A stretch of 64,000 nt of DNA. It comes from Tribonema minus (taxonomy: Eukaryota > Sar > Xanthophyceae > Tribonematales > Tribonemataceae). The stretch's first letter is position 1, and every line of letters starts with the position of its first letter. Both the position numbers and the translations under genes were made by a program. Shown here in pieces: positions 6,526-44,800 of this stretch. Below the pieces are notes generated by a model that was not told the origin of the DNA, made no database searches, and worked only from the letters and a program-made list of their open reading frames with translations. The stretch is taken from positions 372,001 to 436,000 of the forward strand of contig JAFCMP010000514.1 in assembly GCA_017506865.1 (NCBI GenBank). The letters run 5' to 3'.

Positions 6526-9500
6526 CTACAACTGCGGCCGGTGCTGCCCGCCGCCTACATACCCCTGGCGCTGCGCTGCGGACGGGCCCCCCTGCTGCGG
6601 GTGCAGCTGCGTCTGCTGCGGCGGCGGGGGGGGGTACTGGGGGGGCGCGCCCCCCCCGCCGCCCCCTGGGGGCTGATGGTAGAGCACAGCGGGGACGGCG
6701 CGTGTGGGGTGCGCGGGCGGGCCGCGCATGGCCTGCTGCTGCTGCGCGACCTGCTGCTGCTGCAGGAGGTGCTGCTGGTTGAGCATGAGCTGCCGCTGCG
6801 CGTCGGCGCTCAGGGGCACGCCCGGCGCGGCGCCCGCCGCCGACATGACGCCCACCTGCGCGCGTGAGTCACGGTGACAGTTTTGTTAGACATAAACCAG
6901 TCGGTTGGTGGTTGTGGGTAATCTGTGATTATAGTAGGTTGGTGGTTGCGGATGCGCACCCGCCGCCGACATGACGCCCACCTGCATGAGTTGTTTACGG
7001 TGACAGTTTCGTCAGACGTAACCGCAAGCAGGTTATTGGTTGTGGGTGCTTCGCCGCGCAGGCGCCTGCTGCCAACATTACGCCCGCGTGCGAAGGCGCG
7101 GGAGTCTTTGTTGACAGTTCCAATTGTATGAAAATGTTGATCAGCTTGGTGGCTGGAAATGTGCTCGCCAGGGGCGCGCTGGTGATATGATGCCCACCTT
7201 CGTGAGCAACCGTCACAGTTTCGGTAGATGTAACCATTGAGGTTGGGCGCACTCGTCCACTAGGGGGCCCAGCAACGTCACCTTCAAGAGCCGCAATGCG
7301 ATGGTCACAGTGAAAGCGCGTGGCGTTCACACACGATCAGTATTTAGGTAGGTAGGTATAGAAAGCGGTGACGAAGTCGGTGATGCGAACTGGCGACAAG
7401 CAATGGCGACCGCATTCGACGATGGCGGGGTGCTGCCGTGGCACGCCATCCTATGAAGTTCACCACAAGCAAACCTGAGCGACGTGCATTGCACTCACAA
7501 CCTAATGCCTACACGAGCCATTCAGTGCGTGAGTAGCACATGTCCGCAGGCGACTCCACCTGTTGTCCATGCATGGGTGATCGGTGCAAGCATTCATTTC
7601 TGCATTCATTATCTCTCTCCTTGGTCCATGGTCATTCATAGTCATTGGCAGCACAGAACATCGTGGCATTGAGCGGGGTCAATCACCCCCCCCCAACAAC
7701 ATCCCCCAGACCTAGCAGGGGCTGATGCGCCGACCAACCGCACAAACATGAACATTCAAGTCTGACTTCAACAGTGCAGCAACTTCACCTGCTGCGCCTT
7801 AGATGCCACGGAGAGGACCTTGAGCTGTGACACGACACACATGCATCAACTTCAACTCAACTGCAACTTCTGATGGCGCCAGCAGCTCACCTGCATCGCC
7901 TTGTGCGCTACAAAGCGGACCTTGAGCTGCTAATTGATACGCATGCAGAAACTTCAACATCAGCGTAATAACTGTAACTGCAGCGGCGCAAACAACTCAC
8001 CTTCATCGCCTTGAACGCCGCCGAGAGGACCTTGAGCTGCGCGGCGACGCGCACGCCCACCAACTTCACCTTCAACATCATGCTGTGAGTTTGTCCATCA
8101 TCGATCGGCAAATCTCACCTGCATCGCCTTGGACGCCGCCGAGAGGACCTTGAGCTGCGAGATGACGCGTGCACGCCAACTTCAACTCAACTGCAACTTC
8201 GACGGCGCAGCAGCTCACCTGCATCGCCTTGTACACTACGAAGAGGACCTTGAGCTGCGAACAGATACACGTATTGATGTAATCTTCACAACTTCAGTAT
8301 TATACCAACTGCAAGGGCTCACCTGCATGGCCTTGGACGCCGCCGAGAGGACCTTGAGCTGCGAGATGACGCGCGCGCACAGCGTCATGAACGTGAACTG
8401 ATCCCCCTCCTTGCGCTGAAAGTCCAGCAGGTATATGCTCTGCTGCACCTTGTACAGCGTCAGGCCCATGATGACGCGGTACCGCGGCGACAGGAGCCCC
8501 CCCGCCTCCCCCGCGCCCCCCCCGGCCGCGCCGCCGCCGCCCCCGAACCCCCCCTGCAGCACCCCCCCCCCCCCCTTTCCCGCGTTTGGGTACCACCGGC
8601 AGTGTATCCCGTAGCTGCTGAGCATGCGCCACTCGCAGCCGAGCTGCAGCAGCGCTCGGTAGACCTCCGTCATCACGTGCGCGGGGTCCTTCTTTGACTG
8701 GATCCCCAGGTACCAGCGCCGCTTCTTCGCCGGCGGCGCGGGCGGCGCCTGCGGCTGCCCCCTCCCCCCCATCGCTATCCCCCCGTGCAGGTTGCCGGGG
8801 GTTGAAGTGCCCGGGTTCCCCTGCAGAACGTTCTGCGGAATGGAGGTGGGGCGCCCCCCAGATCCCATCTGCATGGCGGGATTTTGCCGCGCCAGTATGT
8901 GCGCCGCCTCCGCTGCGAGTTTGTCGGTGGGCGACTGGCCGCTGCTCCTCCCTCTGCAGCACAGGGTTAGCGCGCGTAGGTGGGCACCATTGAGAAAGCT
9001 ACAAATCGTTCGAACTCCCTCTTTGACAGGCGCACTTTCCAAGGGTGTCCAACGGACTTCAATTTAAACAGAAGACTAGCCACTTCCATGAACTGCACAG
9101 GTGCCTTTGTCACGCCTCAAGGCTTTAAAGGGATATGTACTGTAGTGGCGAAAGGGCCTTTGAGGCATCTTGAGCATCTGTGAGGGCACCACTTGTGGAA
9201 TACCTCCAGGCATAATGGACCAAGGCTCCAGACAGGGGTCTCTTTACGTGCCGGAACGAAAGCAAGATCTGCATTGCAATGGTGGAGTTTGATTCTGCTC
9301 AAACGCAACGCCCTGCGAGCAGTGCCTGCACTCTACGTGGCAGCATCAGCTGCAGTGTGCTCTCACACACCTGCTGCCAAAACTACTCCAGTTGGGGGAT
9401 GCATAACACCTGCTATTGCTTTACGCGCTGAGGGTATCGGGGCATCGGTGTACGTACCGCAGCGCGCTGCCGAACTTCCCACAAGTGATTGCTGTTGCTG

Positions 9501-41800: not shown

Positions 41801-44800
41801 TCAACTGGCCACTTCTTGCGCAGGCTGCAGCATCACAATGCCACCACCCCCGCCATCACCAGAAAGATCGTCGTCTAACTGCACGTCAAACCCATCCAGA
41901 TACTCCGCTCCATGAGCAGGCATTCGCGCTGAGCTGCTGTAAGCGGCAACGCACGGCACGTGTAATTGTGGTGGCGGTATCGGAGCGGGTGCGCAGAGGA
42001 ACCAGTCGTGACACAGCGCGTCGGCGGCGGTGGCTCGCCTGTGCGCATGGGAATACGGGGGCAGCGAGGGGGAGGGGGGGGGGGGGAGCGTCACTCATGG
42101 CAGCAGCAGCGCTCTGCATGCACTGCACTCAGAATGACACAAATGCAGACAGTTCAGTTCACAGGCTGGTAAACCTGAGGTACTGAAAATCGTTGCCGCC
42201 TTGGGTTGATGAGGGCCGCGGGCAACCACTTTCAGCGCGCATAGCTAGTACAGCAGTGCTGCAAGACTAGTCACATACTACTGATACCTCTACACCGAAG
42301 CATGAGCAGCACGCCAGCCAGTGTATGCAACAGGTGCATTGCAAGAAAGCAGCCACAGGCTGCATACTTCTTCCACGCGTACTTTTCGAAATGAAATATG
42401 GTAGTACGACGATTCGTCGACGACGAAGTGCAAATGGACAGAAGGCAACTTCTTCTGCGCAGACGGTTTTAAAAGAACGGTCAGCAAGCTATATGTGGTG
42501 TTTGCAGGGTAAAGCACACCCTACTCCGCCATACTTGGTGACGAGACATCAGCCCCTCCAGCATCTCATGTCTTCTGGGCTTTCACGCCCCAGGCCCAAA
42601 GCTGGAGCATCAAACAATCAATTGCTGCTGTAATCTCACACTCCAAAATCCTGCCGGAAACCTGCCTTCTTAGCCAGCTGCCATATACTCAGCAGGGCAC
42701 TTACCCCCCCCCCCCCCTCTCAAACTGCAACCTACATGCAACCAAACATTGGTGGAAGGCACTGGCGGCTCACCACGCCTCGTCACCTAGAGCTCTACGA
42801 TCTTTGAATTTGCATTTCCATACATACCTCAACGGGTCCAGCGTGAGCAGCGCAGCCAGCAAGCCCATCGCCTGAGCGCTGCTGCCCGGACACAGCGCCG
42901 CAAGCGGCGCCGGCTCCATGTGCGCGAACGCGATCTTGTCGAAATCGGGAGTCTCACACGCGCCGGGCCACGTCGCGGCGGTGGGCGTGCCGGTCACGCG
43001 CAGCACGCGGATCAGCTGATCGATGTCGCTTTGCCCCGGGAAAAGGGGCTTATTAAATAGGAGCTCCGCGAGGACGCAGCCCGCGGCCCACGCGTCGACG
43101 GCGGCTGTGTAGCGGCGCGCGCCAAAGAGGAGCTCCGGCGCGCGGTACCAGCGCGTGGCCACCTGCGACGGGGGAGTAGGGGGGGGGGGGGTGAAAGCCC
43201 TGAAGTTGAGAATTGAAGTTGTGAGAAAACGGCGTGCGCCGAAGAGGAGCTCCGGCACGCGGGTGTGTGTGTGTGTGCGTGTGTGTGTGTGATTGTGTGA
43301 AGGACCTTCAAGTTGAGAATTGAAGTTGTTCGAAAGAAGTAGCGGCGCGCGCCGAAGAGGAGGCTACGGCGCGCGGTACCAGCGCGTGGCTACCTGCATG
43401 TGTGTGTATGTGTGCGTGTGTGAATGACTTCAAGTTCGGAAGTGAAGTTGTTCCGAAAAAAGTAGCACCGCGCGCCGAAGAGGAGCTCCGGCGCGCGGTA
43501 CTAGCGCGTGGCCACATGCGGCAGCGCATGCGGGGGACGGGGGTGAAGGACTTGAGGTTGAGAATTTTGTGAAAAAAGTGCAAACCAAAGGTTGGAGCGC
43601 GAGTGACGAGCTCTGGCGCGCAGCACCAGCGAGGGCTGAGAGCTCAGGCGCGGCGGTAGCTCGCGGCCAACTTGGGCACGGAGTTTGAAGAAATATGTTG
43701 AAGTGTGAATGTGAGCACAACAGGCCAGCATGAATGTACGGTATGAATTGAGTGTACCGGTTAGGTGGAGTTCGGATTAAGCGTTAGGCCGGAGGTGAAC
43801 TAGGGTAGATGGTGATGATGATTATTCGACACCAGCATTGCTGTACTTCATTTGGGTGGGGCAAGGGGGTCGGCAGCTTGCTGACAATGAAGCTGTTGCG
43901 GTAGCGTTGCACTCCGCATGTGCAGCGGCATTACCACCAGCCGCGCTTACACGACAGAGGTGCGAATTTTCTCTCTTGAACTTTTGCTCCTGTATGTTCA
44001 ACCGGCAATCAGCAGCTTTTGCTGCAACTGCCTCTGGATCACACACCATTGGCCGTGAAGGTTCTCCATGAGCACGTTCACTCAGAATAGTATTGTGCAG
44101 TAAGGGTGGCTGTAGCACAACAACACCCATGCTTGTAAACGTGTGGTAGCGAACCCTAGTTGACAGATGAGGTATTGCCACAATGCAACACTCAAATAAG
44201 ACTGCTGCTTTGCGGCTAAAAGGCAATACCTGATGGCTCATGGAGCGCGGACACTCTGGGTCATGCACGCGCGTGAGCCCAAAGTCCCCAATCTTGAGCA
44301 CTCCACCAGAGTTGATCAGCAGGTTCCCAGGCTTGAGGTCTCGGTGCAGCAGGCCCATCGAGTGCATGTGGGCCACCCCTGCAAACATCTGCGCCAGCCA
44401 GCCCTTGGCCTCGCCCTCGAACATGGGCGCTGTGCAGGCACTCAGGACGGCCTCCAGATCTGTGACCATCAGCTCCAAGACCAGCACAACAGAGTCCGCT
44501 CTGGGGAAGACGTCCAGAAGAGGCAGGATGTTGGCGTGCTGCAACTGCCGCATGGCGTAGAGCTCTCTGAACACAGCTTTTGGCAGGCGAGGTGCCGCGG
44601 TGTCGCTGGCTGCATGGCGGCCTCCTCCTCCCAAGCTGCAGCTGATGCTCTTCAGCGCCACCTTGTTGCCTGTTTCCCTGTCGTCAGCGAGGTGCACTTG
44701 ACCAAAGGCACCCTCCCCCAGCTTGCGTCTGGAGATGTAGCGGTTCTGCTTGTCGATGGAATATGGATCCTTGTACACGGGCGAGTGGCAGCCGAAGCAG

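Follow-up and report, generated by a model that had tools for sequence, protein, structure and literature searches.

How can introns lengthen repeatedly while the encoded protein stays intact? The origin of intron sequence that does not come from transposons is an open question, and it is addressed by arrays of exon-edge copies in the window, by which is meant the whole 64,000-nucleotide stretch of DNA analysed here, from the xanthophyte alga Tribonema minus (158-Mb genome).

Exon-edge copies at intron borders

Predicted gene models were produced with a self-trained gene finder for the window and 16 other blindly chosen stretches (224 kb). Five genes of the window are concerned: SNF1/AMPK-alpha, an EIF2B-family gene (Pfam IF-2B), a HAD hydrolase (Pfam HAD_2), RPN3 and a CDK20-like kinase (Pfam Pkinase). 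An earlier note on this DNA had reported, at ten or so borders in five genes, repeats of the exon edge and splice site running into the intron. The tandem repeats were detected in three ways, by Tandem Repeats Finder, by self-BLAST and by reading with three-frame translation, and a border-copy search with a local score of at least 20 found 11 such borders in the five genes (A, acceptor; D, donor): 6855A, 8323D, 10718D, 11469D and 12414A in SNF1, 16116A and 16808D in the EIF2B-family gene, 33632D in the HAD hydrolase, 38187D and 39914A in RPN3, and 43162A in the CDK20-like kinase. A twelfth candidate, 26592, was excluded as doubtful; it lies at an apparent stop codon and may be a donor. The features are as follows.

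6526..13757, minus strand: SNF1/AMPK-alpha gene (HMM gene finder; Pfam Pkinase, AdenylateSensor and KA1; tblastn of the T. minus paralogue P0124), exons at about 13186-13757, 12235-12414, 11469-11613, 10718-10946, 8323-8912 and 6526-6855
6829..7246, minus strand: SNF1 acceptor-side array of the last exon, border 6855, scores 28, 23 and 17
7728..8398, minus strand: SNF1 donor-side array of exon 8323-8912 (self-BLAST, reading, border-copy search), functional edge and five copies, period about 100-118, self-BLAST best at a three-unit shift
9814..10791, minus strand: SNF1 donor-side array of exon 10718-10946 (Tandem Repeats Finder, self-BLAST, reading, border-copy search), functional edge and five copies with scores 60, 56, 49, 37 and 15, period about 168-190
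11324..11498, minus strand: weak SNF1 donor-side array of the exon ending at 11469 (border-copy search, self-BLAST clusters), scores 24 and 20
12383..12700, minus strand: SNF1 acceptor-side array of exon 12235-12414 (reading, border-copy search, self-BLAST clusters, paralogue comparison), functional edge and three copies with scores 29-33; this border bears arrays in two paralogues too
12960..13150, minus strand: SNF1 intron-internal 99-bp tandem duplication, beginning 36 nt past donor 13186 and not spanning the border
15763..16149, plus strand: EIF2B-family acceptor-side array of the exon starting at 16116, scores 36, 16 and 17
16724..16951, plus strand: EIF2B-family donor-side copy of the exon ending at 16808, score 25
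33258..33708, minus strand: HAD hydrolase donor-side array of exon 33632-33810, scores 53, 38 and 14, period about 119-130
38095..38487, plus strand: RPN3 donor-side array of the exon ending at 38187, period 169
39063..39143, plus strand: intron-internal 40-bp tandem duplication, 97% matches, not spanning a border
39327..39963, plus strand: RPN3 acceptor-side array of the exon starting at 39914, scores 45, 33 and 39, period about 169-181
43109..43637, minus strand: CDK20-like kinase acceptor-side array of the exon starting at 43162, period about 114-124

Own-edge tandem copies at exon borders were confirmed as real, not chance, occurrences. Copies of a junction's own edge were present at 21 of 154 predicted junctions in the window and the 16 stretches, versus 0 of 770 tests with the edge of another junction; by set, they stood at 10/60 junctions in the window, 11/94 in the other stretches and 6/80 in the other stretches without stretch L015. 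On one set of predicted models, border probes found copies in 17 of 122 cases versus 0 of 122 for exon-interior probes. Predicted exons shorter than 60 nt were excluded from the own-edge counts, and from the self-BLAST and scan-based cluster counts on predicted models given below. Protein-verified models bore copies at 16/36 borders, with 1/203 for mismatched edges and 1/31 for exon interiors. A sliding-probe scan of shuffled introns gave no tandem pair.

The protein-verified models derive from three deposited T. minus proteins, P0124 (the SNF1 paralogue C5), P0241 and P0001 (RPN3). All 18 introns of these proteins were reproduced exactly with GT-AG borders (P0124 residues 1-8 were left unmapped), and the copies fall within those introns, in agreement with the earlier proposal that introns lengthen by duplication of junction segments while the protein remains intact. 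Use of the outer site is shown in the three deposited proteins; in RPN3, P0001 results from splicing at the outer donor, 38188. The arrays are natural tests of how the spliceosome chooses the outer among near-identical sites. In the three protein-verified genes, border-anchored arrays account for 28, 38 and 69 percent of the intron sequence, and in the less certain predicted introns for about 12-14 percent. P0241 was selected on account of the several arrays in stretch L015, and P0001 belongs to a finding of the earlier note, so the figures for these two are not genome averages; most borders of C5 SNF1 were not known to bear arrays at the time of mapping.

We consider it probable that T. minus introns have been lengthened repeatedly by tandem duplication of junction-spanning blocks, with the outer site kept. 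Each unit (56-291 bp, median about 130) would hold the splice site flanked by some tens of bases from the exon edge and by neighbouring intron; such a block would be tandemly duplicated, and purifying selection would keep the outermost site, the first donor or the last acceptor, in use. The duplicate would land inside the intron because the outermost site alone keeps the protein intact, and the duplications would be tolerated because the outer splice site is still used. Once two copies exist, more unit duplications could follow, both adjoining the exon and within the array, and the copies would then drift as neutral intron sequence. We infer the DNA event itself, which may be staggered-break fill-in, template switching or unequal exchange, and likewise the cause of any junction bias.

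Junctions and intron interiors

Concentration of the repeats at junctions was strong in verified genes and weaker in predicted introns of stretches that had not been picked for arrays. A sliding-probe scan of the three protein-verified genes, two of them selected for arrays, placed 16 of 17 tandem clusters at borders with 7.7 expected (predicted exons shorter than 80 nt excluded); the separate values were 8/8 for P0124 (3.7 expected, P 0.0006), 6/6 for P0241 (2.6) and 2/3 for P0001 (1.5). In predicted introns, border-anchored clusters numbered 12 of 23 in the unpicked stretches (7.1 expected, P 0.013; L015 introns included again) and 10 of 17 in the window (4.6 expected, P 0.003; RPN3 included again). 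The null for these counts, and for the self-BLAST counts below, places one founding block uniformly, which is a simplification. The scan superseded clusters from self-BLAST, which had overlooked one 40-bp internal duplication; by self-BLAST, 15/15 clusters were border-anchored in verified introns and 20/30, versus 8.5 expected, in predicted introns. When self-BLAST was run on intron bases only, 9/9 clusters held an exon-edge copy. A preference for junctions over intron interiors is supported but not settled.

Two readings of this bias were weighed. Duplications may strike at random, with the conserved functional edge re-seeding or converting its copies so that border arrays stand out while purely intronic arrays fade; this explanation is possible, if doubtful. 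It is consistent with the 12 of 23 clusters in unpicked stretches, where the other 11 were intron-internal and border and internal clusters covered equal shares of intron bases (0.12 vs 0.12); exons missed by the gene models may account for some of the internal clusters. It also fits the offset profile (score at least 25), in which a copy was found by 13-21% of border-touching probes and 15-17% of probes lying 60-240 nt into the intron, the values being 6-14% in deep intron and 4-8% in exon interiors, and it is in line with the mean fraction of exon sequence in the blocks, about 0.38, which is near a uniform draw. Against it stand the 8/8 clusters of C5 SNF1 and the 9/9 intron-only clusters.

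Comparison of the parts of each unit bears on this explanation from both sides. The exon-like and intron-like parts had mismatch fractions of 0.191 and 0.233, similar rates, in keeping with joint copying of the two parts in a single block. Exon-like parts were slightly better kept (16 arrays vs 6), as re-seeding would have it and as plain block duplication does not predict, but the difference is only mild. These values come from the less biased comparison. A stronger extra conservation of the exon part (median identity 0.89 vs 0.645 in functional/first-copy pairs, the exon part having an imposed floor of 15) was rejected as largely due to ungapped extension and to selection of hits by exon similarity.

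Alternatively, recurrent intron growth from both ends might be driven by a mutational mechanism coupled to splice junctions, such as breaks or stalled forks at co-transcriptional splicing structures whose repair duplicates about a hundred bp, and much intron sequence in the lineage would then be fossil border copies. We put this forward only tentatively and judge it rather unlikely, since the weaker bias in the unpicked stretches lowers the odds of junction coupling and raises those of random strikes.

Divergence and order of the copies

Five of 29 borders were excluded from the gradient, pair-likeness, splice-dinucleotide and codon-position counts: two in L009 (coding repeats), one in L008 (weak), and L012 7126 and window 26592 (apparent stop codon, possibly donors). 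Similarity to the functional border dropped with distance in 16 arrays (weighted tau sum -71.5; permutations 0 +/- 12.5, 0/2000 as low), and the claim that distant copies are more worn is borne out. The same note had pictured a conveyor, in which new copies arise beside the functional border and push older ones away. For the neutral intron part, the functional and first copies were the most alike pair in 8 of 17 arrays and tied for it in one more, with about 5.8 expected by chance; the freshest junction often does not adjoin the exon, and the SNF1 array at 10718 contains a duplication inside the array. Duplications thus also arise within arrays, and the data do not demonstrate a strict conveyor.

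Arrays at the same border were formed separately in the SNF1 paralogues. At 10718, where scoring covered four of the five copies in the window and three in C5, 7/7 copies were nearer their own gene's edge (40-60 vs 14-25), and the intron parts were unrelated between genes (8, vs 36 and 26 within). At 12414, three paralogues have arrays with differing exon extents and periods; the copies of paralogue C178 were not nearer their own edge (one tie, two nearer the window gene), and for one copy in the window the own edge and that of C5 tied. The donors at 13186 and 12235 bear arrays in C5 and none in the window gene; C178 shows a weak copy at the second of these donors (score 24). An intron at P0124 residue 104 has its own acceptor array and is without counterpart in the window gene model, which may reflect either gain or loss. 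The separate formation of arrays at the same borders indicates that the process recurs. Because the copies record former states of exon edges and the paralogues serve as replicates, whether splicing shapes intron-building mutations is directly testable.

It is very unlikely that selection maintains the copies as alternative exons in tandem or as decoy splice sites in use. GT was kept in 22/27 donor copies and AG in 25/35 acceptor copies, and each of the five intronic copies at border 8323 keeps an open frame for 36 nt, as might be expected of such exons, but the dinucleotides were retained no better than neighbouring positions and none of the copies is present in the three deposited proteins. 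Changes private to single copies were spread evenly over codon positions (89/74/83), with no sign of constraint at the protein level. The copies drift regardless of reading frame, which marks them as debris and not as alternative exons.

Known routes to intron sequence

The earlier note's remark that it knew no described mechanism to match was too strong, since tandem genomic duplication is, according to PMC3443670, an established route of intron gain (the AGGT proto-splice site model, with Gao and Lynch and Hellsten et al. cited there), and Drosophila cases are given in PMC2891723. That route is like the present one in that a short intragenic tandem duplication makes intron sequence and the outer splice sites keep the protein, both of which were found here. 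It differs in that a new intron is made there from an exonic block that contains AGGT, whereas in T. minus existing junctions are duplicated repeatedly and existing introns lengthened, by units of exon edge plus intron (in the window, up to five copies and the functional edge). A purely exonic founding block, in which copies of both edges are joined in the same units, was absent from the three verified introns that carry copies of both edges at a score of at least 20. The copies stand apart in P0241 intron 4 and P0124 introns 3 and 5, and intron birth from a coding block was rejected on this ground; the one overlap, in P0124 intron 6, includes a score of 16, below the threshold.

Intronic minisatellites are likewise tandem arrays, evolving through duplication of units and turnover in the interior; many T. 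minus arrays differ in that they include, and anchor on, the functional exon edge. Among the titles and abstract openings of the papers listed in literature searches, no description was found of such arrays, or of tandem duplication as a repeated contributor to intron length. Alternatively spliced human introns reportedly originated from tandem arrays, to go by the title of Zhuo et al. 2007; there too tandem arrays and introns are linked, whereas the T. minus arrays are one-sided, lie at existing borders and consist of neutral copies.

Introners, described in PMC9860276 as dispersed copies of one transposable element, likewise represent a lineage-specific making of intron sequence, but each T. 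minus array is local and belongs to a single junction. That introner-like mobile elements inserted at the junctions is highly improbable. In its favour is the short motif TTGAAGTT, which occurs in many units and is enriched about 29-fold in the window (41 vs 1.4 expected); the earlier view that arrays are private to their junctions thus holds for the sequence at large and fails for this motif. However, TTGAAGTT was rejected as a mobile-element core because no longer consensus extends over its 97 occurrences, and the units contain private exon sequence. Among the matches listed for two gene regions (RPN3 and SNF1) in a DNA search that skips common words, the same sequence was not seen at many dispersed introns: the RPN3 array matched itself alone, and 0 of 49 listed SNF1-region matches (39 of 63 candidates scored) fell on the intron part of the arrays. 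On these listed matches the arrays are not dispersed introners, the distinction that the earlier note had drawn. TTGAAGTT was also rejected as a branch point, its distance to either splice site not being fixed.

An assembly artefact is scarcely credible: a 283-bp duplication at 40499-41065 is 100% identical, though outside the border arrays, while array copies differ, indels included, in most cases by several to 40 percent, and the arrays at 10718 carry gene-specific exon edges in two paralogues.

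Exon-edge copies at intron borders

The assembly of the xanthophyte T. minus comprises 158.18 Mb in 554 contigs, and an HMM gene finder was trained on the window and on 16 stretches of about 10 kb each elsewhere in the genome (L002-L017). Names proposed in an earlier note for genes of the window fitted Pfam for SNF1/AMPK-alpha (Pkinase, AdenylateSensor, KA1), for the IF-2B family member and for the HAD hydrolase, and RPN3 was backed by homologues; CDK20 is a protein kinase by Pfam, the specific name being that of the note. Over 99% of the query, window RPN3 was 100% identical to the deposited T. 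minus protein P0001. P0001 and two further deposited proteins, the PHTF-like P0241 of L015 and P0124, which is paralogous to SNF1 and encoded on contig C5, formed a protein-verified set, in which all 18 introns between mapped segments were exactly reproduced with GT-AG borders.

Repeat finders and direct reading located the arrays that had been reported at exon borders, in which exon edge, splice site and adjoining intron are copied in tandem into the intron. Each predicted junction in the window and the 16 stretches was probed with 50 exon edge bases plus 10 intron bases, searched in the adjoining intron with a score of at least 20. Copies of the junction's own edge were found at 21/154 junctions, as against 0/770 when another junction's edge was used; probes from the exon interior (70-130 bases inside the exon) gave 0/122, and border probes of the same set 17/122. 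The window contributed 10/60 and the other stretches 11/94 (6/80 without L015). Eleven borders in five genes of the window qualified, plus one doubtful case; outside it, arrays were kept in five of the 16 stretches (L002, L013, L014, L015 and L017), with a doubtful one in L012. Protein-verified models carried own-edge copies at 16/36 borders (1/203 in mismatched tests; 1/31 with exon-interior probes against 14/31 at the same borders), and 13 of the 18 introns had at least one copy-bearing border, in a non-random sample: P0241 was picked for the several arrays in L015, RPN3 was part of the original observation, and P0124 entered as a relative of the window SNF1.

Position of duplications within introns

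Self-similar clusters were identified by a sliding-probe scan, with the expectation that the founding block is placed at random. Sixteen of 17 clusters in the 18 verified introns included an exon border (7.7 expected, P 2.6e-6), and the same scan of shuffled verified introns returned no self-similar pair. By gene, border clusters numbered 8/8 for P0124 (3.7 expected, P 0.0006), 6/6 for P0241 (2.6, P 0.004) and 2/3 for P0001 (1.5), occupying 69%, 38% and 28% of intron bases, respectively. Among predicted introns, 10/17 clusters lay at borders in the window (4.6 expected, P 0.003) and 12/23 in the 16 other stretches (7.1 expected, P 0.013), where border and internal clusters each covered 12 percent of bases; some internal clusters may be part of exons that the gene finder missed.

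The distance profile was modest, a copy being found by 13-21% of border-touching probes and 6-14% of those deep in introns. Detection may be biased toward borders, as the conserved exon edge diverges more slowly. Even so, self-BLAST restricted to intron bases recovered an exon-edge copy in 9/9 clusters, having missed one 40-bp internal duplication. These data support a preference of duplications for junctions, the size of the bias being uncertain. The boldest reading they allow is a mutational process coupled to junctions, and its main rival is that duplications strike at random while a conserved seed persists.

Divergence, order and turnover of copies

Differences private to single copies were even over codon positions (89/74/83), indicating that no exon-type constraint acts on the copies. 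When all differences between functional edge and copies were pooled, they leaned to position three (99/88/145), the pattern expected of neutral copies compared with a functional edge under constraint. Divergence was similar in the exon-like and intron-like portions of units (0.191 and 0.233 mismatches per base), and therefore the unit was probably duplicated as a single block; gene conversion could explain the mild extra similarity of the exon part.

The earlier note had proposed that new copies arise beside the functional border and push older ones away. Similarity to the border did fall with distance in 16 arrays with at least three copies (tau sum -71.5; permutations 0 +/- 12.5; 0/2000), a gradient expected of any tandem process that places new copies beside their parent. 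By our own count on the neutral intron part, the functional edge and first copy were the closest pair in 8/17 arrays, plus one tie (about 5.8 expected). At the SNF1 donor 10718 (window coordinate), intron parts 1 and 2 are alike and exon parts 2 and 3 are alike, which is the trace of a duplication within the array. New copies therefore arise beside the exon and also further in.

SNF1 relatives were found on contigs C5, C178 and C445. The acceptor matching window position 12414 bears arrays in the window gene, C5 and C178, with exon extents of about 15-30, 50-77 and 31-37 bases and periods of 78-117, 167-187 and 143-203, respectively. At the donor matching 10718, seven scored copies reached 40-60 against the edge of the gene that carries them and no more than 14-25 against the other gene's edge, and the intron parts of units are unrelated between genes (score 8, versus 36 and 26 within). 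Donors matching 13186 and 12235 bear arrays in C5 and none in the window gene; a weak copy (24) is present at the latter in C178. At shared borders, each gene has thus formed its array, or exchanged it entirely, on its own. The picture is less clear at 12414, where C178 copies show no greater likeness to the C178 edge and one window copy is tied. The C5 paralogue also has, at P0124 residue 104, an intron whose acceptor bears an array of its own; this intron is absent from the window gene model (13186-13757).

Possible mechanism and other repeats

Junction-spanning blocks occur in tandem, the outer splice site yields the deposited protein, and copies drift while arrays turn over. Candidates for the molecular event are staggered-break fill-in, template switching and unequal exchange, all of which fit the unit sizes (56-291 bases, median about 130). 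Tandem genomic duplication is an accepted route to intron gain (PMC3443670, PMC2891723); among titles and abstract openings, no account was found of introns growing by repeated border duplication. Introners, as presented in the main text of PMC9860276, where 'Tribonema' was not found, differ in kind from the border arrays.

Other repeats were also recorded:
L014, 7993-8050: dispersed element of about 58 bp in a predicted intron of an isocitrate/isopropylmalate dehydrogenase gene, with at least 40 other matches at 88-97% identity on many contigs (40 scored out of 921 candidates)
window, 40499-41065: perfect 283 bp tandem duplication (100% matches), downstream of RPN3 and off verified exon borders
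window, 40240-40406: 74-bp array adjoining this duplication
window, 32472-32830: satellite-like array based on TTGCATTGCATAGGCGCCT, with periods of 19, 44, 57 and 93, adjoining the HAD and EamA genes

The short motif TTGAAGTT/AACTTCAA was strongly enriched (41 in the window against 1.4 expected; 97 in the 224 kb of window and L002-L017) and denser in predicted introns, with no longer consensus and no fixed splice-site distance in these sequences. Interstitial telomere-like repeats TTAGGGTT/AACCCTAA numbered 14 in the window (0.4 expected), and telomere-like AGGGTTAGGGTTAGGG lies in the C5 SNF1 intron after P0124 residue 251. At several window acceptors (e.g. just before 38545 and 43162), long C runs replace the mixed pyrimidine tract.
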